NCBI GenBank assembly: GCA_019038695.1
Contig: JAHOYZ010000034.1
Coordinates: 1-34,292, forward strand
Source of the DNA: Candidatus Zixiibacteriota bacterium
Lineage (GTDB): Bacteria > Zixibacteria > MSB-5A5 > GN15 > FEB-12
DNA: 34,292 nt
Direction: 5' to 3'
The notes under the pieces were generated by a model. The model was not told the DNA's origin, did no database searches, and saw only the letters and a program-made list of their open reading frames with translations. Positions 5,850-33,855 of this stretch are shown here, in pieces. Position 1 is the first letter of the stretch, and every line of letters starts with the position of its first letter. The position numbers were made by a program, and so were the translations under genes.

Positions 5850-7328
5850 TTACCCTTTTACTACGCCCATCGGTGTCATGCGGGCTACTTTCCGGGCAAT
5901 TCCAGCCCGATGCGTTATCTCCACTACGTTGTCAATATCCTTGTACGCACCGGGAGCTTCTTCGGCGACGACTCGTTTGCTTTTGGCTTGGAGATAGATG
6001 CCTTTATCCTTCAAGTGAGCGAAAACCTCGTTGGCGCGGTGACGTCTAACTGAAGCATGACGTGACATGCGCCGCCCTGCTCCGTGGCACGATGATCCAA
6101 ACGTCTCCCGCATCCCCAGTTCGGTACCCACCAGCAGATAACTGGCGGTGCCCATATCGCCGGGGATCAGCACCGGCTGACCGACGTGACGGTACCTCTG
6201 AGGGATCTCCGGGTGTCCTGGACCAAAGGCACGCGTGGCCCCTTTTCGATGAACATAAAGGTGTCGCAGCCGCCCCTCGACTTCGTGTTCTTCAAGTTTG
6301 GCCATGTTGTGGGCCAGATCATAGATCAGGTCGAGACCAAGGCGTTCGGCTGATTGTTTCAGAACTGCCTCGAACGACTGGCGCACTTGATGGGTGATCA
6401 TTTGCCGATTGGCCCAGGCGTAATTAGCAGCCGCTTTCATGGCTGAGAAATATCGTTGGGCTTCCGGTGAAGACGCCGGAGCGCAAACCAGTTGCGGATC
6501 GGGCAGCCGGATGCCGTATTTCTTCCGTGCCGCACGCATCGCTTCAAGGTAATCAGTGCATATCTGGTGTCCGCAACCACGGGAACCGGTGTGAATCATG
6601 ATTGTGACTTGCCCCGTAGCTGTGATGCCAAACGCCGCTGCCGTTTCAGGATCATAAATCTCGTCAACGCGCTGGATCTCTAGGAAATGGTTGCCTGCAC
6701 CCAGTGTGCCAAGCTGGTTACTGCCGCGTTTCCTGGCGGAATCACTTATCAGCGATGGATCCGCCCCCTCGATACCGCCCCCTTCTTCCATGACATCGAG
6801 ATCGTCTTTGGAACCGTAACCATTGGCCACTATCCAGCGAGCGCCATTGGCGAGTACGTCATCCATCTCCTGATTTGAAAGCCTGAGACGACTGGTCGAA
6901 CCAACTCCGGAGGGAACATTGGCAAACATGGTGTCCACCAGTTTCGGTACGCGGGATCGAATATCATCTGCCGTTAAGTCAGACCTCAGCAGCCGCACGC
7001 CACAGTTGATGTCATACCCTACACCGCCGGGGGAGATTATACCCTCATCGGCATCGAAGGCGGCGACTGCGCCGATTGCAAATCCATAGCCGTGATGAAT
7101 ATCCGGCATCGCTATCGAATGGCTGACAATCCCCGGCAAGGTAGCGACATTGGTCACCTGGTACAGGGCGTCATCGGCCCGGATCGTCTCTATCATTTTC
7201 TCATCGCAATACACCAGCCCCGGCACATTCATGCGCAGACCGTGTTGCTTGAGTACATTGCTCTTAAATTGTTCGGAGATGCGGTAACGACAGTCGCCGA
7301 TTTTGTCGATTGGTCCTTTCCAACTCAT
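5850..7328 (-). CDS. rtcB: RtcB, GTP-dependent RNA-splicing ligase
   Basis: RtcB joins RNA 2',3'-cyclic phosphate or 3'-phosphate ends to 5'-OH ends using GTP and Mn2+, acting in tRNA splicing or RNA repair. The 492-residue product has the family's metal and guanylylation landmarks: GGVGYDINCGVR near residue 100, GAGNHFLE, the HTGSRGCGH segment, AHNMAKLEEH, the SSCHGAGR motif holding the guanylylated His, and the terminal P-x-GVVKG. Length is normal. I prefer ATG at 7328, preceded by GGAG at 7 nt, to the GTG at 7352, which would add eight residues. The archease gene lies directly upstream on the same strand, 52 nt away, so the two probably share a transcript. Function is firm; the physiological substrate is unknown. 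Confidence 0.95.
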   Translation of the reverse strand: MSWKGPIDKIGDCRYRISEQFKSNVLKQHGLRMNVPGLVYCDEKMIETIRADDALYQVTNVATLPGIVSHSIAMPDIHHGYGFAIGAVAAFDADEGIISPGGVGYDINCGVRLLRSDLTADDIRSRVPKLVDTMFANVPSGVGSTSRLRLSNQEMDDVLANGARWIVANGYGSKDDLDVMEEGGGIEGADPSLISDSARKRGSNQLGTLGAGNHFLEIQRVDEIYDPETAAAFGITATGQVTIMIHTGSRGCGHQICTDYLEAMRAARKKYGIRLPDPQLVCAPASSPEAQRYFSAMKAAANYAWANRQMITHQVRQSFEAVLKQSAERLGLDLIYDLAHNMAKLEEHEVEGRLRHLYVHRKGATRAFGPGHPEIPQRYRHVGQPVLIPGDMGTASYLLVGTELGMRETFGSSCHGAGRRMSRHASVRRHRANEVFAHLKDKGIYLQAKSKRVVAEEAPGAYKDIDNVVEITHRAGIARKVARMTPMGVVKG

Positions 7329-7380
7329 GCCATTCTCCACTCTATGGGACACTTGTTATCTAAAGATAGCGGCTCACCGC

Positions 7381-7797
7381 TCAGACGTCAAATAGCACTT
7401 GCACCCACGCTTTGTCTGTTTCCTCGGCAATCTCAAGCATATGGTATGACACCGCTTTTACATGCAGTCCCGGTTCATGGCGGTTGGGGTCGAAACGCTC
7501 GCCGTATCCGACAGCTGTTAGCTGGTTATCATCCCGAAGGGTAACATCAATTTCACGGAATAACATCAGATCGACTTCGTGAATGAGTATCAACTCCGAG
7601 AGAAACCGAACCAGCAGGCTATTGCGGTCAGGCGATTCTATTTCGATGCTTATTTCCTTTACCGGCTCGATAGAAGAGATATCGGTTATCAGGGCAAACA
7701 TTGCTTCGCCAGCGGCGGCGAACGCTTCTTCGAGATTATCTCCAGACGCCCGGACAATAACATCGGCAGTGTGCTCAAGAAACTCGAAATGTTTCAT
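7381..7797 (-). CDS. Archease, RtcB activator
   Basis: Archease is a small metal-binding protein that speeds RtcB guanylylation and allows multiple turnover. The 138-residue frame has the family signature EHTAD near the N-terminus and the C-terminal VKAVSYH...WVQVLFDV block, and it is of ordinary length. It is first in the operon with rtcB downstream, the arrangement expected from known archease-RtcB pairs. The ATG at 7797 lacks a strong ribosome binding site. A TTGACA hexamer lies about 35-40 nt upstream on this strand, but no convincing -10 follows it. Confidence 0.93.
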   Translation of the reverse strand: MKHFEFLEHTADVIVRASGDNLEEAFAAAGEAMFALITDISSIEPVKEISIEIESPDRNSLLVRFLSELILIHEVDLMLFREIDVTLRDDNQLTAVGYGERFDPNRHEPGLHVKAVSYHMLEIAEETDKAWVQVLFDV

Positions 7798-7903: not shown

Positions 7904-7932
7904 TTTACAAATGAGTTTCTTAGTATTATACT
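7904..7932 (+). promoter_or_regulatory. Sigma-70-type promoter for the GlmL/MutL-like operon
   Basis: TTTACA (7904-7909) and TATACT (7927-7932) are spaced by exactly 17 bp in the divergent gap between archease and the operon starting at 8054. Transcription would start near 7939, leaving a leader of about 115 nt. Confidence 0.6.
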
Positions 7933-8053: not shown

Positions 8054-9913
8054 ATGGCAAAGTTTGATGACCCCGGTGACATTAAGATCATTCTCGCTAC
8101 AGATTGCGGGTCCACTACGACCAAGGCAATCCTGATTGAGTTCAAGGATGGCGAATATCGTCTGACTACTCGTGGTGAGGCTCCTACCACTGTTGAAGCT
8201 CCTTTTGAAGACGTTACTATGGGTGCGCTTAATGCCATTCAGGAGGTCGAGGAGCTGTCCGGTCGCAAGTTGTTGGGCGATGACGGCATAATTATGAACC
8301 CCTCCAACGGTAGTGAGGGAACCGATGTTTATATTTCGACCTCGTCGGCTGGCGGCGGTTTGCAGATGATGGTGGCTGGTGTGGTGCGCTCAATGACTGC
8401 CGAATCGGCCGAACGCGCCGCTCTGGGTGCGGGAGCGATCGTTATGGATGTGATCGCCTCCAATGACAAGCGCCTGCCCCACCAACAGATTGAGCGAATT
8501 CGCCATCTGCGACCGGATATGATTCTACTGTCAGGTGGAATCGATGGTGGTACCACAACCCACGTAGTCGAATTGGCCGAGCTTATTTCTGCGGCTGATC
8601 CCCGTCCGCGACTGGGATCGTCATACAAACTGCCGGTTATTTATGCCGGAAACAAAAACGCAAAAAGCAATATCGAAGATACCCTGCAAGACAAGGTTGA
8701 CCTCAAGTCGGTAGACAACTTGCGCCCAACCCTGGAACGCGAAAATCTCGCTCCCGCCCGTGAGGAAATCCACGAGCTGTTCATGGAGCATGTAATGGCG
8801 CAGGCACCCGGCTATAAGAAGCTGATGTCTTGGACCGACGCTCCGATTATGCCCACCCCTGGAGCGGTGGGATTGATTATCCAGACCATTGCCGACCGTT
8901 ACAATATTGAAGCGGTCGGAGTCGATATCGGCGGTGCCACGACTGACATCTTTTCCGTTTTCCGTCCCGGCGGCGGTGAGGGTGTGTTCAACCGCACCGT
9001 CTCAGCCAACCTGGGAATGTCGTACTCGATATCGAACGTGTTTGCCGAAGCGACCCTGCCTATGGTCATGCGATGGGCACCATTCAAAATGGACGAGCGC
9101 GACCTCCGTAACCGGGTCAAAAACAAGATGATCCGCCCGACAACGATTCCCCAGTCGATGGAGGAATTGATCTTCGAGCAGGCTGTTGCCAAAGAAGCTT
9201 TGCGGCTGGCTTTTGTTCAGCATAAAAACTTTGCTACTGTCCTTAAGGGTGTCCAGCAGCAGCGGACCATCGCCGATGCTTTCGAACAAACGACCTCCGG
9301 TGCGACGATTGTGAACATGATGTCGCTCGATATGCTGATTGGCTCCGGTGGTGTGCTTTCTCATGCCCCGCGACGTCAGCAATCCGCAATGATGATGATT
9401 GATGCTTTCCTGCCAGAGGGAGTTACCCGCCTGGCCGTGGATTCTATCTTCATGATGCCGCAGTTGGGCGTGTTGACCGAAGTACAGCCAACAGCCGCCA
9501 CGGAAGTATTTGAAAAGGACTGTCTGATTCATCTCGGGACCTGTGTAGCTCCTGTTGGCACCAGCAAGAAGCCGGGACCGGTTATGAAGTACACTATTGA
9601 TCTACCATCCGGTAAAGCCTCCGGTACCCTTCACAGTCTTGAAATGAAGAAGTTCGAGCTGGGGCTTCAGGAAAACGGATTGCCGATTAAGGCCAAAGCT
9701 ATTCTCGAACCAGAACGTCATTTCGACGTCGGCGCCGGGCGTGGTAACAAGCGCGAAGTTGAACTTCACGGTGGCGTGGTGGGCATCATCCTCGATGGCC
9801 GCGGCAGGCCGTTTGATCTGTCCACACTAACCGAAGACGAGCGCGTGGCCAATCTGAGAAAATGGATGACCGAGTTGAATATCTATCCCGTGTCAAAAAT
9901 GGGTGGTGAATGA
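8054..9913 (+). CDS. GlmL/MutL-family ASKHA ATPase (orphan, long form)
   Basis: The 619-residue protein belongs to the acetate kinase/Hsp70/actin ATPase fold and most resembles the GlmL/MutL family, whose members accompany cobalamin-dependent glutamate mutase and are thought to act as reactivating chaperones. Visible motifs are a phosphate-1 loop, ATDCGSTTTK (residues 15-24), a GGIDGGTTTHVVEL segment near 160, and a second acidic loop VDIGGATTD (290-298). It is longer than the roughly 460 residues I recall for GlmL. No mutase E or S subunit or other B12 enzyme is encoded in the window. Downstream come an exported membrane-anchored protein (4-nt ATGA overlap) and a lipoyl/KOW protein. A good promoter lies at 7904-7932; the ribosome binding site is weak. 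The family is likely; the biological role is not established. Confidence 0.75.
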   Translation: MAKFDDPGDIKIILATDCGSTTTKAILIEFKDGEYRLTTRGEAPTTVEAPFEDVTMGALNAIQEVEELSGRKLLGDDGIIMNPSNGSEGTDVYISTSSAGGGLQMMVAGVVRSMTAESAERAALGAGAIVMDVIASNDKRLPHQQIERIRHLRPDMILLSGGIDGGTTTHVVELAELISAADPRPRLGSSYKLPVIYAGNKNAKSNIEDTLQDKVDLKSVDNLRPTLERENLAPAREEIHELFMEHVMAQAPGYKKLMSWTDAPIMPTPGAVGLIIQTIADRYNIEAVGVDIGGATTDIFSVFRPGGGEGVFNRTVSANLGMSYSISNVFAEATLPMVMRWAPFKMDERDLRNRVKNKMIRPTTIPQSMEELIFEQAVAKEALRLAFVQHKNFATVLKGVQQQRTIADAFEQTTSGATIVNMMSLDMLIGSGGVLSHAPRRQQSAMMMIDAFLPEGVTRLAVDSIFMMPQLGVLTEVQPTAATEVFEKDCLIHLGTCVAPVGTSKKPGPVMKYTIDLPSGKASGTLHSLEMKKFELGLQENGLPIKAKAILEPERHFDVGAGRGNKREVELHGGVVGIILDGRGRPFDLSTLTEDERVANLRKWMTELNIYPVSKMGGE

Positions 9914-10668
9914 TGAACAGGAAAATCCTTGCTGCCATAATTGTAGTTCTGGTTGGTCTCGGATTGACCGTATCGGCCGCTGATAATAAATATATCAGCT
10001 TTGATGGCGAGTTTAGTTTCAACTATCCCGAGGATTGGCGGCAGATTGATCACCGGGTTGTGGATGCCTTCTTAGTTCGCAATGAGGCTGGTAAATCGAC
10101 TCTTGACTATGAGGCGGCTTTTGCCACGTTGGGACATGTTCCCTTCTGGAGAGGGCCATATTTCATTTTGTCGGTTGAGGCTGATGAATCTTACTCCGAT
10201 ACACAGATCGATTCTGTGCTACAATCTATGAGCAGAGTTTATCAGAAGGGTATCAAGTATTTTCCCGTTGCGGACTTCCTGACCGATATGGAGTCAAACA
10301 GCCCTGTCTACGACAAGGAACGCAAGATCATTAGCGTGATCAGTGATGTCGTAGAAAAGGGAGAACTTCTCAAGAGACATCTGTTCGTCATGAAGTTCTA
10401 TGAGAAGGGGCTTGCCAACTTCTATTTCTACGCGCCCGACTCTCTGTACGACAGTAGCGTCGTGAGTTTTCATGGCATCCTGGAGACCTTCACTTATGGG
10501 AATGTTGACTCGATGCTTGTCCCTGAGACGCTTGAGGTTCTTGATGCTGAAGACATCAGTAAGGAATCCGACGGCTTTTTTGGGATGCCGGTAGCCGTTA
10601 TGGGGGGACTGTTGATCGTACTAATCGCTATCGCAGCCATCCGCAGAAAGAAAAAAAGAGTTAGTTAA
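9910..10668 (+). CDS. Exported protein anchored by a C-terminal transmembrane segment
   Basis: The 252-residue product has an N-terminal signal peptide (about residues 5-23, cleavage likely after VSA). A globular region of about 190 residues follows, including FSFNYPEDW, a phrase seen in PsbP-like and other small extracytoplasmic domains. At the C-terminus a hydrophobic helix (about 228-244) precedes the basic tail RRKKKR. The expected topology is periplasmic domain outside, tail inside. It starts at ATGATG; the first ATG overlaps the stop of the GlmL/MutL-like gene and the second is equally possible. The lipoyl/KOW gene begins 20 nt downstream. No family is recognised with confidence; the coupling suggests it works with its neighbours. 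Confidence 0.7.
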   Translation: MMNRKILAAIIVVLVGLGLTVSAADNKYISFDGEFSFNYPEDWRQIDHRVVDAFLVRNEAGKSTLDYEAAFATLGHVPFWRGPYFILSVEADESYSDTQIDSVLQSMSRVYQKGIKYFPVADFLTDMESNSPVYDKERKIISVISDVVEKGELLKRHLFVMKFYEKGLANFYFYAPDSLYDSSVVSFHGILETFTYGNVDSMLVPETLEVLDAEDISKESDGFFGMPVAVMGGLLIVLIAIAAIRRKKKRVS

Positions 10669-10688
10669 ATTATAGAGGAAACTGTCCT

Positions 10689-11816
10689 ATGGCTCATGCC
10701 TATACACCGGGTCTGAAAGTTACTGATCACCTTCAGGTAATAAAGCGGCGGATTCTCCCTCTCAAGGGACGGGTCGTGGTCAAAGTGGGCGATCGGGTTA
10801 ATCCCGACGATGTGGTAGCCCGCACCGAGCTGCCGGGTAACGTGGAACCGCTCAACATCGCCAATAAGCTCGGCATTCCGCCGGAAGACCTGGAAATGGT
10901 TATGCTCAAGAGAGAGGGCGACCCCATTAAGAAAGGGGAGCCGATAGCTCTTAAGAAGTCCTTCATCAAGTGGTTCAACAGTTCCGCCGAGGCGACTGTT
11001 GATGGTACCCTCGAATCGATCTCTTCGATTACAGGCCAGGTCCTGCAACGTGGTCTGCCAATTCCAGTGGAAGTAAAGGCTTATCTCGTTGGTGAAGTGA
11101 CTGATATCTTTCCTGAGGAGGGTGTTGAAGTTACCTGTACCGGTGGTTTTGTGCAGGGTATTTTCGGCATCTGTGGCGAAACATCCGGTAAACTCAAGGT
11201 TGTCGTTCCCGACAATTCAACCGTTCTTGACGAAAAACATATCACCGATGATCTGGCTGGGAAAATTATTGTGGGTGGGTCAATGGTTACATCAGCGGCG
11301 GTCAGGAAAGCCATCGAAGTGGGCGCCTATGGTATCGTTTCGGGTGGCTTGGACGACAAAGATCTTCGTGATTTCCTCGGCTACGATATCGGCGTGGCTA
11401 TCACCGGGGCTGAGGGTCTCGGTATTACGCTGGTCATAACGGAGGGTTTTGGCGAAATCAGTATGGCCAGGGGCACGTTTGATCTCTTGAAGTCTCACGA
11501 GGGCGAACTGGCTTGCATCAATGGCGCCACCCAGATTCGCGCTGGAGTCATCAGACCGGAGGTAGTTATACCGTCGGCGGGGGACACCGCTATCGATGAT
11601 AAAAAAAGGCACTCGGCGATTGGCGGACTGACTATCGGATCACCGGTACGCGTCATTCGGCACCCGTATTTCGGTCATTTGGGTCATGTTACCGATCTAC
11701 CATCCCCACTTACAAAGCTGGAGTCGGAATCCAGTGCTCGCGTATTGGAGGTAGAGTTCGAAGGGGGCGAGAAGGCAATTGTACCTCGCGCCAATGTGGA
11801 GATGATTGAGGGCTGA
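10689..11816 (+). CDS. Conserved-looking protein with lipoyl-like N-terminus and KOW-like C-terminus
   Basis: The 375-residue soluble protein has no signal peptide. Near the N-terminus, LKGRVVVKVGDRVNPDDVVA and the following strands look like a barrel-sandwich (lipoyl/biotinyl-type or RnfC-type) fold, but there is no canonical modified Lys motif. A second similar patch is ATVDGTLESISSITGQVL. The middle (about 140-300) is Gly-rich with alternating strands and helices (GGFVQGIFGICGE, GAYGIVSGGLDD). The C-terminal 60 residues contain a KOW-like strand-loop (SPVRVIRHPYFGHLGHV). GAGGAA lies 9 nt upstream of the ATG, and the gene ends just before a strong terminator. I have the impression that such proteins recur beside long GlmL/MutL-like proteins in other lineages, but cannot verify this. 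Function unknown. Confidence 0.7.
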   Translation: MAHAYTPGLKVTDHLQVIKRRILPLKGRVVVKVGDRVNPDDVVARTELPGNVEPLNIANKLGIPPEDLEMVMLKREGDPIKKGEPIALKKSFIKWFNSSAEATVDGTLESISSITGQVLQRGLPIPVEVKAYLVGEVTDIFPEEGVEVTCTGGFVQGIFGICGETSGKLKVVVPDNSTVLDEKHITDDLAGKIIVGGSMVTSAAVRKAIEVGAYGIVSGGLDDKDLRDFLGYDIGVAITGAEGLGITLVITEGFGEISMARGTFDLLKSHEGELACINGATQIRAGVIRPEVVIPSAGDTAIDDKKRHSAIGGLTIGSPVRVIRHPYFGHLGHVTDLPSPLTKLESESSARVLEVEFEGGEKAIVPRANVEMIEG

Positions 11817-11838
11817 ATGCCTTCAACTATACAAGATA

Positions 11839-11874
11839 GAAAAAGCCTCTCGGCTGTAGCCGAGAGGCTTTTTC
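11839..11874. terminator. Strong bidirectional Rho-independent terminator
   Basis: A perfect 16-bp stem, 11839-11854 with 11859-11874, closes on a TGTA loop. The GC-rich core GCCTCTCGGC is flanked by A5 on the left and T5 on the right, so it should stop transcription from both the plus-strand operon ending at 11816 and the minus-strand lipoprotein gene ending at 11902. Confidence 0.92.
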
Positions 11875-11901
11875 TATGATTTGACTTCGGGTACTCGACA
11901 A

Positions 11902-12422: not shown

Positions 12423-13139
12423 ATGGAAAACGTGATAGAAGCAAGCATATTCTCCGGAGCGGTCTGGCAGATCATTAGCAACACGTCGATTTTCGGCAAG
12501 TTCATTCTACTGGTTTTGGTTTCCATGTCGTTCGTGTCATGGGCTATTATCTTCGCCAAGTGGCGACAGTATCGGGATGCGGAGGAAGCCAGCCTGCGAT
12601 TCATGCAGACCTTTCGGCGGAGTCGCACTTTGGGAGAAGCGATTGGACAGGCTAAATCGCAGAAATCGGCCACTGTCTCACATATTTTTCTTGCTGGTGT
12701 GACCGAGTTGGATCAATTGCAGGAATTGAAGAATGAGGCTGGAGGTCTCCAGGAATCTGTCAAACCTTTAGATCAACATGACTTCGATATTCTCGAAATG
12801 ACTATGGAGCGGACCCTGACCGACCAGATGGCCGGCCTGCGGAGCCGAGTCATATTCTTGGCGACAACCGGTAATTCTGCTCCGTTTTTGGGTTTGCTCG
12901 GAACAGTCGTGGGGATTATGGACTCTTTCTGGTCAATTGGAGAACGCGGGTCAGCATCACTGGCGGTGGTTGCCCCCGGGATCGCCGAAGCATTGTTAGC
13001 CACGATCGTCGGTTTGGGAGCCGCTATCCCGGCTGTCATGGCCTACAACTGGGCCAACAACAAGCTGAAGTTCATCAGCGATTCATCGTACGGCTTCATA
13101 CTTGAGTTCATCGCCAGGGTGAAAAGGGAAACCCACTGA
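12423..13139 (+). CDS. tolQ: TolQ/ExbB-type proton channel subunit
   Basis: The 238-residue inner-membrane protein belongs to the MotA/TolQ/ExbB family, which with TolR forms a proton-driven motor that energises TolA/TonB. It has a first transmembrane segment near residues 33-47 (FILLVLVSMSFVSWAII), a cytoplasmic domain, and two helices carrying the family signature LGLLGTVVGIMDSF and GIAEALLATIVGLGAAIPAV. Length matches TolQ (about 230). Its stop overlaps the start of tolR by one base (TGATG), so the genes are coupled. The symbol follows from tolB in the same operon; by sequence alone exbB would be equally acceptable. Confidence 0.9.
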   Translation: MENVIEASIFSGAVWQIISNTSIFGKFILLVLVSMSFVSWAIIFAKWRQYRDAEEASLRFMQTFRRSRTLGEAIGQAKSQKSATVSHIFLAGVTELDQLQELKNEAGGLQESVKPLDQHDFDILEMTMERTLTDQMAGLRSRVIFLATTGNSAPFLGLLGTVVGIMDSFWSIGERGSASLAVVAPGIAEALLATIVGLGAAIPAVMAYNWANNKLKFISDSSYGFILEFIARVKRETH

Positions 13140-13573
13140 TGCGACGCTACCGACCAGAGGAATCGGAGGCCATATCGGATATCAATATCGCCAACCTGGT
13201 TGACGTTGTGTTGGTGCTGTTGATCATCTTTATGATCTCAGCTCCTCTATTGCAATCCGGAATCGAAGTCGATCTACCCAAAACACGCGCCGCAGGTATT
13301 TCCGAAGAAGCTGACGGTGTTGTGGTTACTCTCGATAAGAGGGGTGGAATCTACATCAACGATGTTTGGTCTCGTCTTGAGAATTTCGAGCAGTCGCTGA
13401 CCGAAGAGCTGCAAGCCAAAAACACGTCATCGGTTTACCTGCGGGGTGATTCGGCCGTCTCCTATGGTATCGCAATACAGGTGATTGGCAAACTCAAGGA
13501 TATGGGTATTGAAACGATCGGGTTGGTCACCGCTCCGGTTGAGAGCAGTTCATTGAACCGTCGTTCGCAATAG
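13139..13573 (+). CDS. tolR: TolR/ExbD-type proton channel subunit
   Basis: The 144-residue protein has a short cytoplasmic N-terminus, one transmembrane helix and a periplasmic domain. The segment DINIANLVDVVLVLLIIFM carries Asp22, matching the conserved proton-carrying Asp of TolR (D23 in E. coli), followed by SAPLLQ and the VDLPKT motif typical of TolR/ExbD. It should pair with the upstream TolQ in the inner membrane. Only 8 nt separate it from the TolA/TonB-like gene. Confidence 0.92.
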   Translation: MRRYRPEESEAISDINIANLVDVVLVLLIIFMISAPLLQSGIEVDLPKTRAAGISEEADGVVVTLDKRGGIYINDVWSRLENFEQSLTEELQAKNTSSVYLRGDSAVSYGIAIQVIGKLKDMGIETIGLVTAPVESSSLNRRSQ

Positions 13574-13581
13574 GTGTCGGT

Positions 13582-14292
13582 ATGAGACGCGACGTTGTCT
13601 TTTCTCTGATTCTCCACGCTCTGATTATTAGTGCGACTCTCTGGTCAGCCCCAATAAAATGGCGCAAGGAGATTACGTATGACGACATCATTCGCGTCCA
13701 ACTCACCGCCCCGGCCGAGATAACATCTTCCGAACCGGTGGCACTGGAGCCGGTCGAGGTCCCTGCGCCCGTGATTGAAGAGGCCCCCGACATCCCGATA
13801 ACATCCCCGACAACTGTTGAGGAAGCTGAGATTCCCGAAAAGCCGAAACCCAAACCAGAGAAGCCCAAACCCAAACCGAAGCCAGAAGTTACCAAGAAAC
13901 CGAGCGACCAATCAAACACTGGTAATACCGGAGAAAACAAGGGACAGGAAATCAGCACGCCGGGCGGATTCGGTTCGCCGTTTGCCGGAGCAACAATCGA
14001 CAATGCCAGTTTCAACTATCCCTACTGGTTCACACAGGCTTTCAATAAGATAGCGGTGAATTGGAATAACCCGGTGGTGTATGACGGTACCCTGATCTGC
14101 ACCATTTATTTTCAGGTTATCAAATCAGGACGAATCATTGAAATGCGTATTGAGAAATCATCAGGAATCCCGGAGTTTGACGAATCATGCCTGAGAGCAG
14201 TTTCGGGGGCAGCCCCGTTTCCTCCTCTGCCGCGGCAGTTCCGGGATGAAATCATCGGCTTGACCCTGCCGTTCAAGCACAGTCCGAGGTAA
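13582..14292 (+). CDS. TolA/TonB-like energy transducer
   Basis: The 236-residue protein has an N-terminal membrane anchor (about residues 6-22, FSLILHALIISATLW), a Pro/Lys/Glu linker (about 82-106, KPKP-type repeats) and a C-terminal TonB/TolA domain (about 140-236). The last includes the IYFQVIKSGRI...VEKSSG-like strand-turn (here MRIEKSSGIPEFDESC) and the terminal FPPLP. Position between tolR and tolB favours the TolA role, while the short Pro-rich linker and C-terminal fold look more like TonB, so no symbol is given. It would span the periplasm and transmit motor force to the outer membrane. Confidence 0.85.
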   Translation: MRRDVVFSLILHALIISATLWSAPIKWRKEITYDDIIRVQLTAPAEITSSEPVALEPVEVPAPVIEEAPDIPITSPTTVEEAEIPEKPKPKPEKPKPKPKPEVTKKPSDQSNTGNTGENKGQEISTPGGFGSPFAGATIDNASFNYPYWFTQAFNKIAVNWNNPVVYDGTLICTIYFQVIKSGRIIEMRIEKSSGIPEFDESCLRAVSGAAPFPPLPRQFRDEIIGLTLPFKHSPR

Positions 14293-14296
14293 GTCT

Positions 14297-15625
14297 ATGC
14301 ACTCGAAAACAGCTCTGTTCCTATTGGCCGCTATTGTGATCCTGCCTCTATCGGGTATAGCTCAAACCGATCCGGGTCGAATACGCAATATTTTCTTTGA
14401 TACACTGACCACGAGCGGTTTCCAGGCTACACCGGTTGGTGTGGACCAGATGAAGTTCATTGGCAACCAGTATATTTCGTCAGACGATTCATCCATGATG
14501 CGCTGGGTCACCCAGGTAGTTCAACGGGACATAGATTTCTATGCCGATTTCGAATTGATTGGTCTGGACTCCTTCTTCATGCAGGTATACGAGATTACTG
14601 AGATGGACATACTGGGCTGGAAAAGGCTGGGGGCCAATATCCTGATCAAGCTGGAAGCGGAGTTTCCCGGTGTCAATCTACGTACCCGGTGGCGTCTGTT
14701 TGATACCCATACCGGACAGCAGATCGCGCGGGGTTCATTTGAGTATCACAAGATGTACTGGCGCGAGATTGCCCACAACATTTCCGATGAGATCGTACGC
14801 ACTCTTACCGGGGAGGAAGGTATCTTCAGAACCAAGATTGCTTTCGCCCGTAAAAAAGGAGAGGCGAAGGAGCTTTTCATTGCTGACTACGATGGTGCCA
14901 ACGAACGACAGTTGACAAAAAACGGATCAATCAATATCTCACCTTTCTTTTCTGCCGACGGTAAGGAAGTTTATTTCACATCCTATGTAGATGGTGATCC
15001 CCAGCTTTACAAAGTTCGCGTGGACAATGGTAAGGTGAGTCGTGTAGCGAGTTTCCCAGGTCTTGTAGCGGCTCCGTCGGTATCCCCCGATGGCAACAAG
15101 ATTGCCTGTGTTCTGAGCAAGGATGGCAACTCGGAGATATATGTCCTCGGTCTTGATGGGCGCGTCATCAAGCGTCTGTCGCACCATCGAGCTATCGAAA
15201 GTGCTCCATCGTGGTCACCCGATGGTCGCTCGATTGTCTTCTCTTCGGACCGCACCGGTCGTCCCCAACTGTATATTATGGATACCGATGGTCTCAATCT
15301 CAGGCGTCTGACATACGAAGGCGGTTATAACGATTCGCCCGTCTGGTCGAAACGAGGGAACAGGATCACTTTTGTCAGTCGAAGCAAGAGAGGACGGTTT
15401 GATATCGCTTCGATTGATACTTCTGGAGCCGACTATCGGATCCTAACTGACAAAGGAATGAATGAGAACCCGCATTTCTGTACCGATGGCAAACACATTA
15501 TATTTTCCTCAACGAGACTTGGAACCAGCGATCTGTATACGATGGATATCACCGGTCGTAATCAGCGTCGCCTTACGCGAAGCGGCAATTGCACCAACCC
15601 GGTTTGGGGAGCGGCCGTTCGATGA
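14297..15625 (+). CDS. tolB: TolB periplasmic beta-propeller protein
   Basis: The 442-residue protein has a signal peptide (about 1-22, GIAQ cleavage region), an N-terminal TolB domain (about 25-170) and a C-terminal six-bladed propeller built from PD40/WD40-like repeats, each with an SPDG-type turn (FSADGKEVYF, VSPDGNKIAC, WSPDGRSIVF, CTDGKHIIF). In the Tol system it links the inner-membrane motor to outer-membrane lipoproteins and peptidoglycan. GAGG lies about 7 nt upstream of the ATG. The stop overlaps the next lipoprotein gene as ATGA. Length is close to E. coli TolB (430). Confidence 0.93.
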   Translation: MHSKTALFLLAAIVILPLSGIAQTDPGRIRNIFFDTLTTSGFQATPVGVDQMKFIGNQYISSDDSSMMRWVTQVVQRDIDFYADFELIGLDSFFMQVYEITEMDILGWKRLGANILIKLEAEFPGVNLRTRWRLFDTHTGQQIARGSFEYHKMYWREIAHNISDEIVRTLTGEEGIFRTKIAFARKKGEAKELFIADYDGANERQLTKNGSINISPFFSADGKEVYFTSYVDGDPQLYKVRVDNGKVSRVASFPGLVAAPSVSPDGNKIACVLSKDGNSEIYVLGLDGRVIKRLSHHRAIESAPSWSPDGRSIVFSSDRTGRPQLYIMDTDGLNLRRLTYEGGYNDSPVWSKRGNRITFVSRSKRGRFDIASIDTSGADYRILTDKGMNENPHFCTDGKHIIFSSTRLGTSDLYTMDITGRNQRRLTRSGNCTNPVWGAAVR

Positions 15626-30003: not shown

Positions 30004-33000
30004 CTACTTCATAAGCAGCATTTTCCTGGTTTCAGTCATCGCGTCGGTCTGAATACGATAGAAATACATGCCTGAAGCATAATTCGTCGCATCCCACGTA
30101 ACACAGTGCTGACCTGCTCCATAGGAACCGTCGGCCAGAGTTGCAACCTGCTGTCCTGTAATATTGAAGACAGCAATCGTTATGTGGCCGGCCTGACTCA
30201 GGGCGAAGCCAATTTCGGTGGTCGGGTTGAACGGGTTAGGATAGTTCTGAGAGAGACCAAACTCCTCAGCGATCATGCCCGTAACGCCACCGTTGGCAAA
30301 GAGATCACCACTCTCGCACGATTTGGTCACAGCATTAGCGCCGGCATTGTAGGTCATGGTCGCATGAGTAGCGTTCGTTACCTCAAAACACCATTCTCCA
30401 ACAGGTTTCTTCATACCTGCTGTCTGGAAATCAACTGTGCCGTCGGCCGCTGTGACGCCATTGTAAGTTCCTCCGGTCGGACCGGTTGCAGTAACGTACA
30501 CAGTGGCCCCGGCGACCGCTCCACCAACATCATCCTGGATAGTGACAGTGCAGGTGCCAAAATAGTTGGGACCGGACTTCGCTCGTCCAACCGCAATATC
30601 CGCCACATGCATTTCATCGCTGGGTTGATCGGTAACGTTAATATAGTCAACCATGGTAGCGACATCAGAACCGTAGGCGTTGGTTGCTGTCATGGTTACA
30701 GTATATGTACCAATGTTCGGATAGGTGTAACCGGGATTCTGAGCCGTCGAAGTGCCCACGCCATCCCCGAAGTCCCAACTCCAATTCGTTGGGTTGCCGG
30801 TCGAAATGTCAGTGAAGTTCACTGCCAGAGGGTATGGACCAGAAGTCGGAGAAGCTGAGAAATCAGCCACAGGAGGTCCGGGTGTAGACTCAAATTCGAT
30901 ATACATCTGATCGATATATAAGGCATCGAGACTGGTCAGTCCCCAGGAGCGATTGCTGTCACGCGTACGGACATAGACCGTTCCACTGGTATAGGCTGGC
31001 AAGGAAGCATTGTACACCTGCTCGGTAGCCGAAGCCACCGTTGTCAACGACAACCAGGTAGCGCCGTCGGTCGAGTACTCGAAGATGAAATCATCGCCGT
31101 CACTGTTAGTTGAGCGATAGGCTTCCAGGAAGAACGTCACCGTCGCGCCGCCTCCCACATTGAAGGTCCACTGGTGTTCGGCATTGCTGGTGACTTTGCG
31201 CGGATGGCCGGTGGATTCCGATTCGGTAATCACTTCGTAGGCATCATCACTCGCCACTGTATTGGCAAACGTGCCACTATATGTTCCAAGAACAGAAGTC
31301 TCAGATTGAGCATAGGTCTTCTCAGCGAAACTTTCCTCGTTCACGGTGATGTAGTCCGTCTTGGTCTCGTCATCTGAGCCGTAGGCGTTGGTGGCAGTCA
31401 GAGTCACCGTGTATGTTCCTACCGTATTGTAGGTATACGAAGGATTCTGGGCTGTGGAAGTACCACCGTCCCCAAAGGTCCAACTCCAACTCGTCGGGCC
31501 ATCGGTTGACTGGTCAGTGAAGTCTACTGTCAGGGGGTAATTGCCACTGGTGGGGTTACCAACAAAGTCAGCCGTTGGTGGTGGAGGCGGCGGTTCCGTC
31601 ACGGTGATATAGTCAGTCCTGACTAGCTGATCAGTGCCGCAAGAGTTCGTAACGGTTTGCGTAACGGTGAAGGTCCCGGCTGCAGTATAGGTGTACGACG
31701 GACTGGCCGTAGTCGAAGTACCTCCATCACCAAATGTCCACGAATACGACGTGGCACCACTTGACTGGTCAGTGAAATTCACGCTCAGCGGATAGTCGCC
31801 GGATGTCGGTGAACCGGTGAAACCGGCTGTTGGTGCTGTACATGTGACGGTGATATAATCCACTCTGGTGAATACATCATCACCGCAGAAGTTAGTCGCG
31901 GTCAATTCGACCGTGTAAGTACCAGCCGTATTATACGTGTAACTGGGATTAGTGGCCGTCGAAGTGCCGCCATCACCAAAAGTCCACGAATACGAAGTAG
32001 CACCGCTGGAGGAATTAGTGAAATTGACCAGCAACGGTACTTCACCTGAAGTTGGCGATCCTGTGAACCCGGCTGTAGGAACCACGCACGGATCAACGGT
32101 GATGTAGTTGGTCTTGATTTCATCGTCGGATCCACCCGGACCGGTTACGGTCAGGGTGACAGTGTAGGTTCCTGCCGCTGTGTATTCGTAAGACGGACTC
32201 TGTGTTGTAGAAGTCCCGCCGTCACCGAACGTCCAACTCCAGTCAGTGATACTACCCGTCGACTGATCAGTGAAGTTTACCGTTAATGGCTCGGTGCCCG
32301 AAGTCGGGGAGCCGACGAAAGCAGCCACCGGCGGCGGCGGCGGACCAGTGTTAACGGCATTGTACGAATTGATACGACCCGCACCCATCTTGCCGATGTA
32401 CTTGGAAGCTAGCTCCGCATCTATATCATCGGCGCTACTATAAAGCTGGTCCTCAACCTGCGAGGCTGTCCAGGTAGGATTCTGCGACCAGATCAGACCT
32501 GCAACGGCAGCCGCCATCGGGCAGGCCATCGAGGTCCCGTCCATGCTGGCCCAGAAGGTGGTCGCCGCATCGGTGTGGTCGTGATAGGTCGAATAGATGC
32601 CAACACCTGGTGCCGAAATATCAACCCAGGTGCCATATGTAGTGAATGAAGCGGCGGCGTCATTTTCATCGGTAGCGGCCACCGAAATACAGTCGCTGCG
32701 GCTGTTCAGATAAGGGGCAGATTCCGAACCGTCGTTTCCTGAAGCGACAAAAATCAACCCGCCATTGGCGATGAAATAATCGGCGGCAGCGGCAATACCG
32801 CCGGAGTTAGAGGAACCCCATGAGCATGTGGCGATATTGGCGCCATTATTGGCGGCATAGTAAAACGCCTCGGCGGCGGCATCCATCATCACTACGCCGT
32901 ATTCCTGGCCTAAGTAGTTGTACGAATACCCCATACGGAGCGCCATGACTTTGACACCGTTTCCGGTTACGGCCTGGGAACCATTGCCCCAGCCACCGGC

Positions 33001-33855
33001 AGTTCCAGCCATACCGTAACCGTCATTGGTTAGCATGCCAATGATACCGGCCGTATGAGTGCCGTGACCGTTGAAGTCGCGAGGATCATTATCTTTGTCG
33101 TTACAGTCTTCACCGGTCCAGCAGTTGCTGACGCCATCGATGAAGTCGTAACCAATCCAGTCATCAATGTAGCCATTGCCGTCATCATCAACGCCGGCGG
33201 AGCCGTTCAACTCGGCATCATTGATCCACATGTTGCCCCGAGACGCTCCCGGATTGGCGACAGTAGCGTTCGCTCCACCCAGATCGGGATGATAGTATCG
33301 CGTTCCTGAATCGAGGTCTGCGATGATAATCGACGTTGAGCCAGTCTGTATATCCCAGGCTTCGGGGGAATCGATATCGTCGTCGTTTGCCTGATTATGA
33401 TACCATTGATAGGGGTCATAATAGCCGTCATTGGGAGTGGCAAACATTGCATGAATGCCTATCGGTTCAACCTTCTCCACCAAGGGATGATTGCGATAGG
33501 CGGCCATCGCATCGTCAAGATCGCCCGATTCAAATTTTATTTTATGATACTTGGCTAATTCGGCCGTTTTGGCACTGGCACCAGCACCCTGGAACTGTTG
33601 CTTGATGCGAGACACTGCAAACTTGTCAGAGATCGCATCAAACTCTGCATCGCCAATGTGTGCCACGGCATTAGAAGCCTGACTTACTTCCATGCGGCCC
33701 ATGTTGTGATCAAGGACAACAATGAACTCGTCCTGGACATAACCAAGGAATGCCGGAATATCTCTAGGTTGGTCTACTTGCTTAATCTGGTCTGCTGAAA
33801 CAACAATCGGAATGAGAAAAAGAACGCACGACAGGAAAATCATGAACCTTTTCAT
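30004..33855 (-). CDS. Secreted subtilisin-like (S8) protease with five PKD domains and sorting domain
   Basis: The 1283-residue protein has a signal peptide (about 1-21), an inhibitor-type propeptide (about 38-135) and an S8 catalytic domain. The triad is Asp182 (LDSGT), His264 (GHGTH) and Ser442 (DGTSMACP), with oxyanion Asn374 (ASGNDG), so it should be active. Four PKD domains follow (about 510-840, each with WTFGDGGTST), then a jelly-roll-like region (about 845-985), a fifth PKD (WDFGDGVGTST), an Ig-like region and a classic sorting domain (NYPNPFNPTTEIGF...GMYFYRI...KMLLMK). The family degrades extracellular protein; PKD modules often bind substrate or surface. Start MKRF is set by GGAGGGG 2-4 nt upstream. 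A promoter candidate lies at 34045-34073 and a terminator after the stop. Confidence 0.95.
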   Translation of the reverse strand: MKRFMIFLSCVLFLIPIVVSADQIKQVDQPRDIPAFLGYVQDEFIVVLDHNMGRMEVSQASNAVAHIGDAEFDAISDKFAVSRIKQQFQGAGASAKTAELAKYHKIKFESGDLDDAMAAYRNHPLVEKVEPIGIHAMFATPNDGYYDPYQWYHNQANDDDIDSPEAWDIQTGSTSIIIADLDSGTRYYHPDLGGANATVANPGASRGNMWINDAELNGSAGVDDDGNGYIDDWIGYDFIDGVSNCWTGEDCNDKDNDPRDFNGHGTHTAGIIGMLTNDGYGMAGTAGGWGNGSQAVTGNGVKVMALRMGYSYNYLGQEYGVVMMDAAAEAFYYAANNGANIATCSWGSSNSGGIAAAADYFIANGGLIFVASGNDGSESAPYLNSRSDCISVAATDENDAAASFTTYGTWVDISAPGVGIYSTYHDHTDAATTFWASMDGTSMACPMAAAVAGLIWSQNPTWTASQVEDQLYSSADDIDAELASKYIGKMGAGRINSYNAVNTGPPPPPVAAFVGSPTSGTEPLTVNFTDQSTGSITDWSWTFGDGGTSTTQSPSYEYTAAGTYTVTLTVTGPGGSDDEIKTNYITVDPCVVPTAGFTGSPTSGEVPLLVNFTNSSSGATSYSWTFGDGGTSTATNPSYTYNTAGTYTVELTATNFCGDDVFTRVDYITVTCTAPTAGFTGSPTSGDYPLSVNFTDQSSGATSYSWTFGDGGTSTTASPSYTYTAAGTFTVTQTVTNSCGTDQLVRTDYITVTEPPPPPPTADFVGNPTSGNYPLTVDFTDQSTDGPTSWSWTFGDGGTSTAQNPSYTYNTVGTYTVTLTATNAYGSDDETKTDYITVNEESFAEKTYAQSETSVLGTYSGTFANTVASDDAYEVITESESTGHPRKVTSNAEHQWTFNVGGGATVTFFLEAYRSTNSDGDDFIFEYSTDGATWLSLTTVASATEQVYNASLPAYTSGTVYVRTRDSNRSWGLTSLDALYIDQMYIEFESTPGPPVADFSASPTSGPYPLAVNFTDISTGNPTNWSWDFGDGVGTSTAQNPGYTYPNIGTYTVTMTATNAYGSDVATMVDYINVTDQPSDEMHVADIAVGRAKSGPNYFGTCTVTIQDDVGGAVAGATVYVTATGPTGGTYNGVTAADGTVDFQTAGMKKPVGEWCFEVTNATHATMTYNAGANAVTKSCESGDLFANGGVTGMIAEEFGLSQNYPNPFNPTTEIGFALSQAGHITIAVFNITGQQVATLADGSYGAGQHCVTWDATNYASGMYFYRIQTDAMTETRKMLLMK
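30640..32345 (-). repeat. PKD-domain coding repeats in the protease gene
   Basis: Five units of about 245 nt encode PKD domains. Four are nearly contiguous (about 31335-32345) and the fifth (about 30640-30885) is separated by the jelly-roll region. Recurrent plus-strand phrases such as CCGTCACCGAACGTCCA, CACCAAATGTCCA and CACCAAAAGTCCA mark each WTFGDGG motif. Copies are clearly diverged at DNA level, so recombination between them would be limited. Confidence 0.8.

Follow-up and report, generated by a model that had tools for sequence, protein, structure and literature searches.

Gene content of the locus

The window, meaning the whole stretch of 34,292 nucleotides of a Candidatus Zixiibacteriota contig that was analysed, carries on its forward strand three genes encoding, in this order, a MutL-type ATPase, a protein with two hydrophobic segments and, last, the protein under study, hereafter the target. 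The target open reading frame (ORF) encodes 375 aa from an ATG start, with GAGGA at 10675-10679, nine bases 5' of the ATG. The features of this region are:

7904..7932, + strand: putative promoter of the three-gene unit, TTTACA-17-TATACT (pattern scan)
8054..9913, + strand: MutL-type ASKHA ATPase, 619 aa, proposed partner of the target (PF13941, E 5.9e-129; motifs; co-occurrence)
9910..10668, + strand: protein with two hydrophobic segments, between MutL and the target (ORF, hydropathy)
10689..11816, + strand: target gene, encoding a barrel-sandwich, swivelling and KOW protein (ORF; phylum-wide conservation; structure model)
11836..11877, no strand: terminator-like perfect 20-base inverted repeat with 19 pairs, just 3' of the target gene

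The three genes are presumably co-transcribed. The promoter call is weak because the count of promoter-like sites in the window (7) hardly exceeds that in shuffles (4.8, sd 2.0). Terminator-like sites amounted to 6 overall vs 5.3 in shuffles, the 11836..11877 repeat being the one with 19 pairs. The 9910..10668 ORF overlaps the MutL gene by 4 bases and its product, judged by hydropathy and by eye, has a signal-like N-terminus and a C-terminal anchor, with no Pfam family above its cut-off. Only loci from the window's own order have a recognisable copy of this protein at that position; L033, L038, L045 and L047 carry an unmatched ORF there instead.

Beyond the target's terminator, ExbB (PF01618) and, by eye, ExbD/TonB/TolB-like genes are found at 12423-15625 (+); copies also occur close to the target in many loci from the order to which the window belongs, but no fetched locus from another order has them there. 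On the other side, an RtcB RNA ligase gene adjoins an archease gene at 5850-7797 (-) by Pfam, RtcB and archease being known partners. The large 30004-33855 (-) product, read by eye, is presumably subtilisin-like, with repeats of a PKD-like domain and a sorting-like tail at its C-terminus. The window gave no Rfam match at the gathering threshold and no ARAGORN match.

Conservation of the target gene

The target is encoded in 57 of 61 genomes, its own included, and in 123 of the 132 genomes of the window's phylum (77/78 of those of high quality), full-length matches in other genomes being 62-84% identical. Since most genomes of the phylum encode such full-length matches, the ORF is a real gene. 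In other phyla, Bathyarchaeota included, 51 relatives share 38-53% identity with the window protein. Among the matches listed, relatives came from WOR-3, Eisenbacteria, Zixiibacteriota, Bacillota, Armatimonadetes, Latescibacterota, Marinimicrobia, Planctomycetota, Terriglobia, Bathyarchaeota and others, a genome named Symbiobacterium thermophilum, a culturable carrier, among them. In a scan of genome contigs, 80 loci were kept out of at least 544 relatives, a choice leaning to the fused form described below because a fused relative headed the mixed alignment used as query.

No relative was found in searches of viral contigs, plasmids and phages and, consequently, a mobile or phage origin is unlikely. 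A defence-system reading was also considered and set aside, PADLOC having matched no defence model in the seven proteins scanned.

Domain architecture of the target protein

The original prediction had described a two-domain protein joining a lipoyl-like fold to a KOW-like fold through a glycine-rich middle region. Both named folds were recovered, and a third domain had been missed: the glycine-rich middle, taken there as a mere region, is itself folded, and therefore the protein consists of three folded domains:

10710..11072, + strand: barrel-sandwich hybrid domain (RnfC_N/lipoyl-like), residues 8-128 (profiles of 52 proteins)
11073..11579, + strand: swivelling beta/beta/alpha domain, residues 129-297 (VIA-align; invariant residues)
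11619..11813, + strand: KOW/SH3 domain, residues 311-375, after a low-confidence linker (structure model, Foldseek, VIA-align)

The AlphaFold2 model of the target has a mean pLDDT of 87.0 and a pTM of 0.73, with pLDDT below 50 only at residues 1-7 and in the linker (299-312), and hydropathy indicates no hydrophobic segment. The earlier statement that no family could be named for the protein agrees with the Pfam and NCBIfam searches, in which no full-length family was found; the window protein alone gave only sub-threshold Pfam matches and came near the cut-off of no NCBIfam family.

Domain profiles were scored at E<=0.01 on the A2 alignment, which holds the window protein and the 51 relatives from other phyla, that is 52 proteins. 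RnfC_N matched 39/52 (best E 5.7e-7; window protein not among them), Biotin_lipoyl 25/52, NQRA_N 9/52 and KOW only 3/52. At that threshold the window protein itself has, of these four, only Biotin_lipoyl (E 0.0015, 18.7 bits vs a cut-off of 22.1), and its KOW5_SPT5 match (E 0.044) is sub-threshold in Pfam. With the beta-rich model, these profiles indicate that the predicted N-terminal barrel-sandwich fold holds. In the separate profile search proposed for the N-terminal part, run against the PDB, a biotin/lipoyl attachment protein was reached only at E 0.13, behind Thermus RNA polymerase beta' 391-457 (E 0.0013) and Thermotoga maritima NusG (2xha region 143-169; E 0.0079), all weak E-values which would indicate at most a shared fold.

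In VIA-align, residues 129-297 superposed on RraA (1q5x_A; Z 9.1, 3.1 Å over 126 residues) and AF_0055 (2hi6; Z 9.1, 2.7 Å over 110 residues), and residues 311-375 superposed on NusG (1m1g_D; Z 8.8, 1.6 Å over 54 residues), the comparison originally called for, and on Spt5 KOW2-KOW3 (4ytl_A; Z 8.5, 1.1 Å over 50 residues), all of these structure matches standing only slightly above background, since this tool often gives a best Z of 7 to 8 by chance. The profile match of the target to RraA 3c8o_A is weak (E 0.16), and no sequence-family match at E<=0.01 was obtained for residues 129-297 among the 52 aligned proteins. A near-invariant motif, NGATQIRAGVxRPE (residues 278-291), lies in the swivelling domain. 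For the C-terminus, Foldseek matched the model to SPT5 KOW5 (7okx_Z) with a probability of 1.00 and E 3.6e-3, in keeping with the KOW-like fold first proposed.

KOW folds often bind RNA, the ribosome or RNA polymerase, so the target could be a transcription- or translation-linked factor whose KOW domain binds one of these as NusG does. This reading, which we consider unlikely, draws on the fold itself, on the RNA polymerase beta' and NusG matches of the N-terminal profile and on the best Foldseek match by E-value, which is T. maritima NusG (6.7e-5), yet with a TM-score of only 0.12-0.13. It is countered by the absence of the NusG N-terminal (NGN) domain from the Pfam matches of the window protein (E<=1) and of the 52 aligned proteins (E<=0.01), and by the tracking of the target gene with membrane-protein genes reported below. 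The extra domain of T. maritima NusG is reported to aid its recruitment to the elongation complex (PMC7819879).

Conserved residues bear on whether the lipoyl-like and swivelling folds could form a swinging arm carrying lipoyl, biotin or phosphohistidine. The best lysine column in residues 1-128 is K19, in the first strand and present in 44/52 rows, the other lysine columns reaching half being filled in 27-37 of the 52 rows. None is invariant and the carrier feature, an invariant modifiable hairpin lysine, is absent from the 52-row alignment, as is a conserved phosphorylatable histidine (the only His column at >=50% is residue 3, 27/52 rows). K19 notwithstanding, such a carrier is therefore highly improbable, and the original remark that no canonical modified lysine is present stands. 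No cysteine column reaches 50% of the 52 rows either, and the invariant positions are mostly occupied by Gly, Arg, Glu and Thr, many of these positions falling in the swivelling domain and at the KOW end. Because of this composition and the lack of invariant Lys, His or Cys, the target would be a binding or scaffold protein, judging from the alignment.

Many Bacillota targets (L063-L088) are 440-530 aa long and align to the profile twice, over overlapping stretches, which would fit an extra barrel-sandwich repeat; most of these targets adjoin a MutL gene.

MutL-type ATPase encoded upstream

The window MutL has the motifs DCGSTTTK, DIGGATTD and GSGG, which we take to be ASKHA nucleotide-binding motifs, although over all MutL rows, GlmL-type rows included, each falls short of full presence (88, 88 and 76 of 98 respectively). 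Among the 80 loci kept, upstream sequence suffices for 81 target matches, and 67 of these have MutL on the same strand at most 3 kb upstream (all ORFs considered, fused cases included). The remaining 14 have no upstream MutL (L086, L087, L089, L090, L093, L099, L100, L103, L106, L108, L117, L125, L126 and L133); when the genomes of nine of these loci were searched, a MutL match was found in eight, and none in that of L106. In own-phylum loci, a set that repeats some genomes, MutL is upstream in 32/36.

In Zixiibacteriota, WOR-3 and Eisenbacteria, MutL and a relative of the target are also fused into a single protein, whose complete copies measure 927-1029 aa and which holds a relative of target residues 17-296 and an extra barrel-sandwich repeat, without the KOW domain. 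In the tree, the fused MutLs (8 rows, of which one genome supplies two) group as a single clade with 100/100 support and, therefore, the fusion is counted only once. In the Phycisphaerales-record phylum, long frames surrounding the target were considered as further fusions and discarded, the target-bearing long frame fetched having no MutL match.

MutL/GlmL is described in PMC4682846 as a chaperone for the reactivation of glutamate mutase. With a neighbour of this family, the MutL/target pair might act as a chaperone system that reactivates some B12-dependent enzyme, the target being the enzyme-facing partner. Several results run against this. In NCBIfam, the window MutL stays below both cut-offs, with 238.6 of the 475 bits set for the GlmL equivalog and 168.7 of the 204 set for the GlmL subfamily, and six GlmL-type proteins form a separate set in the MutL tree, with 100/100 support and long branches. 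Because of these scores and this placement, the sequence comparisons make it a MutL-family ATPase that is probably not a glutamate mutase accessory protein. No mutase was seen by eye among the 25 most recurrent neighbour clusters. With the genome distribution given below, we hold this explanation to be improbable.

DUF6754 membrane module and recurrent neighbours

The fullest operon order, found in L041, L119, L120, L128 and L134, is S164-S127-MutL-target-DUF6754-M217-M279-M228, and in L101 and L114 the MutL-target pair comes first. S127 (30 ORFs) and S164 (26 ORFs) are recurrent near the pair, while DUF6754 lies within 2.5 kb downstream in only 12 of the 82 target matches with enough sequence (all ORFs). 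This last count and the 67/81 count of upstream MutL are free of the greedy ORF choice, which fails in GC-rich loci; gene orders and the neighbour, module and fusion counts are thus lower bounds.

DUF6754 is the one named family of the module (PF20539, E 2.1e-126). Scanned members of S127, S164, M217, M279 and M228 did not reach any Pfam cut-off, nor did the scanned M proteins reach an NCBIfam cut-off. The median number of hydrophobic segments is 3 for DUF6754, 6 for M217, 3 for M279, 4 for M228 and 2 for S164, and 0 for the target, MutL and S127, so that by hydropathy the first five are predicted to be membrane proteins and the last three are not.

In a Fermentithermobacillus genome, 12 regions chosen for their DUF6754 match hold all four module genes in 9 cases and at least three in all 12, in one order: DUF6754, M217, M279 and M228 are a unit. 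This genome (L147-L158) has 14 DUF6754 matches, two of them short, in differing neighbourhoods, and no shared substrate gene was seen by eye in the two regions viewed in full. The window's genome has three tandem DUF6754-M217-M279-M228 sets on another contig (L159 263-11660, contig C7), and its S127 also lies on another contig than the target, which counts against the system proposed below.

In its structure model (pLDDT 90.4), a DUF6754 domain from L102 shows a Rossmann-like domain with a long helix on either side. Its fold matches are generic Rossmann-like ones (best Sir2, Z 11.6, 3.4-3.7 Å), which we do not read as function, and no Foldseek match was obtained at E<=0.001. When profiles of M279 and DUF6754 were run against the PDB, the matches were weak or of fibronectin type.

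A link to a membrane module, together with the RnfC_N-like domain of 39/52 aligned proteins, would also suit an RnfC- or NqrA-like subunit, docked on a membrane complex and serving in redox chemistry or electron transfer. RnfC carries conserved cysteine motifs for iron-sulphur clusters, and in the target no cysteine column is shared by half of the rows; moreover, no Rnf or Nqr subunit was seen by eye among the 25 most recurrent neighbour clusters and the scanned module proteins match no Rnf/Nqr family. Such a subunit is consequently very unlikely.

Co-occurrence across genomes

In the Terriglobia-record phylum, DUF6754 is found in 3 of 149 genomes and a full-length target in the same 3, with a marginal partial target match in G241 (E 8e-4). 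MutL is above its cut-off in those 3 and in G241, G285 and G315, and below it in five more; the three genomes with such a MutL and neither DUF6754 nor a full-length target count against the B12-enzyme explanation. In the Phycisphaerales-record phylum (n=199), 50 genomes have DUF6754, 47 the target and 45 both (DUF6754 only 5, target only 2, neither 147; 52 with either), for a Fisher p of 2e-36, p-values of this kind being inflated by the shared ancestry of the genomes. Among 38 other target-bearing genomes, MutL is present in 37 and DUF6754 in 36.

Within the window's own phylum, the high-quality genomes have the target in 77/78, MutL in 76/78, DUF6754 in 78/78 and S127 in 78/78, a near saturation that makes this co-occurrence little test of linkage. 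DUF6754 is present in 132/132 genomes of this phylum and in 0/14 well-known control genomes; MutL (PF13941) matches 2 of these 14, both below cut-off, so that none reaches it.

The partnership of the target with the MutL-type ATPase and the DUF6754 membrane module is thus well supported, and the target, far from being an isolated curiosity, is their conserved partner in both bacteria and archaea. Own-phylum genomes usually have one target and about five DUF6754 matches (up to 14 elsewhere) and, since DUF6754 often outnumbers the target, a one-to-one stoichiometry is unlikely. These copy numbers suggest that several membrane modules share a single ATPase-adaptor pair, as would be expected of a factor for assembly or gating.

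Proposed role and comparison with known systems

Taken together, gene order, fusion and co-occurrence lead us to lean, by a modest margin over even odds, towards a cytosolic adaptor role for the target, as one subunit of an undescribed envelope system formed with the MutL ATPase and the DUF6754 module. Weighing against it are the separate contig of the modules and S127 in the window's genome, the 14 target matches without MutL upstream, the few with DUF6754 close downstream (12/82), the Phycisphaerales-record genomes that have only one of DUF6754 and target, the excess of DUF6754 copies, the MutL rows in which motifs are missing, and the binding to RNA, ribosome or RNA polymerase that is frequent among KOW folds. 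In such a system, the MutL-type ATPase would bind and split ATP, its motion would be relayed by the adaptor's barrel-sandwich and swivelling domains, and the KOW/SH3 domain, on its flexible linker, would dock on a protein surface offered by the membrane module or by S127, so that the target may couple the ATPase to the membrane complex. The likely outcome would be ATP-driven assembly, gating or repair of that complex, although as to mechanism ATP-driven assembly or gating is a guess. More broadly, we give an even chance to an ancient ATP-driven envelope machine common to bacteria and archaea, in which the MutL ATPase and the adaptor work on the membrane complex of four DUF6754-module proteins, helped by S127 and S164.

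If this proved true, membrane systems would gain a new class that is core to at least one phylum and, by DUF6754, absent from the 14 control genomes, and DUF6754 would acquire a context; a core cellular machine would perhaps have been overlooked because it is absent from the usual model organisms. The eight gene families, their order and their co-occurrence are now defined, which opens their function to testing. In the open-access literature, no study of a target/MutL/DUF6754 system and no paper bearing the DUF6754 name or the PF20539 accession was found.

Several known systems share parts of this one. Like RnfC and NqrA, the target has an N-terminal barrel-sandwich domain (RnfC_N 39/52, NQRA_N 9/52); unlike RnfC, it lacks conserved cysteines, and its remainder consists of the swivelling and KOW domains. 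With NusG and SPT5 it shares residues 311-375, which superpose at 1.1-1.9 Å over 50-55 residues (4ytl_A, 1m1g_D, 3p8b_B), whereas it lacks the NusG N-terminal domain and has different gene partners. The fold of residues 129-297 resembles that of RraA and other swivelling proteins (Z about 9), at 9-16% identity in the RraA, Rv3853 and AF_0055 rows; unlike RraA, the domain sits within a larger protein and has neither a conserved His nor a sequence-family match. The window MutL matches PF13941 over its full length, as GlmL/MutL proteins do, but it falls under both the GlmL and GlmL-family cut-offs, is about 620 aa long and stands apart in the tree. DUF6754 (PF20539), finally, enters this comparison as the module gene that co-occurs with the target.
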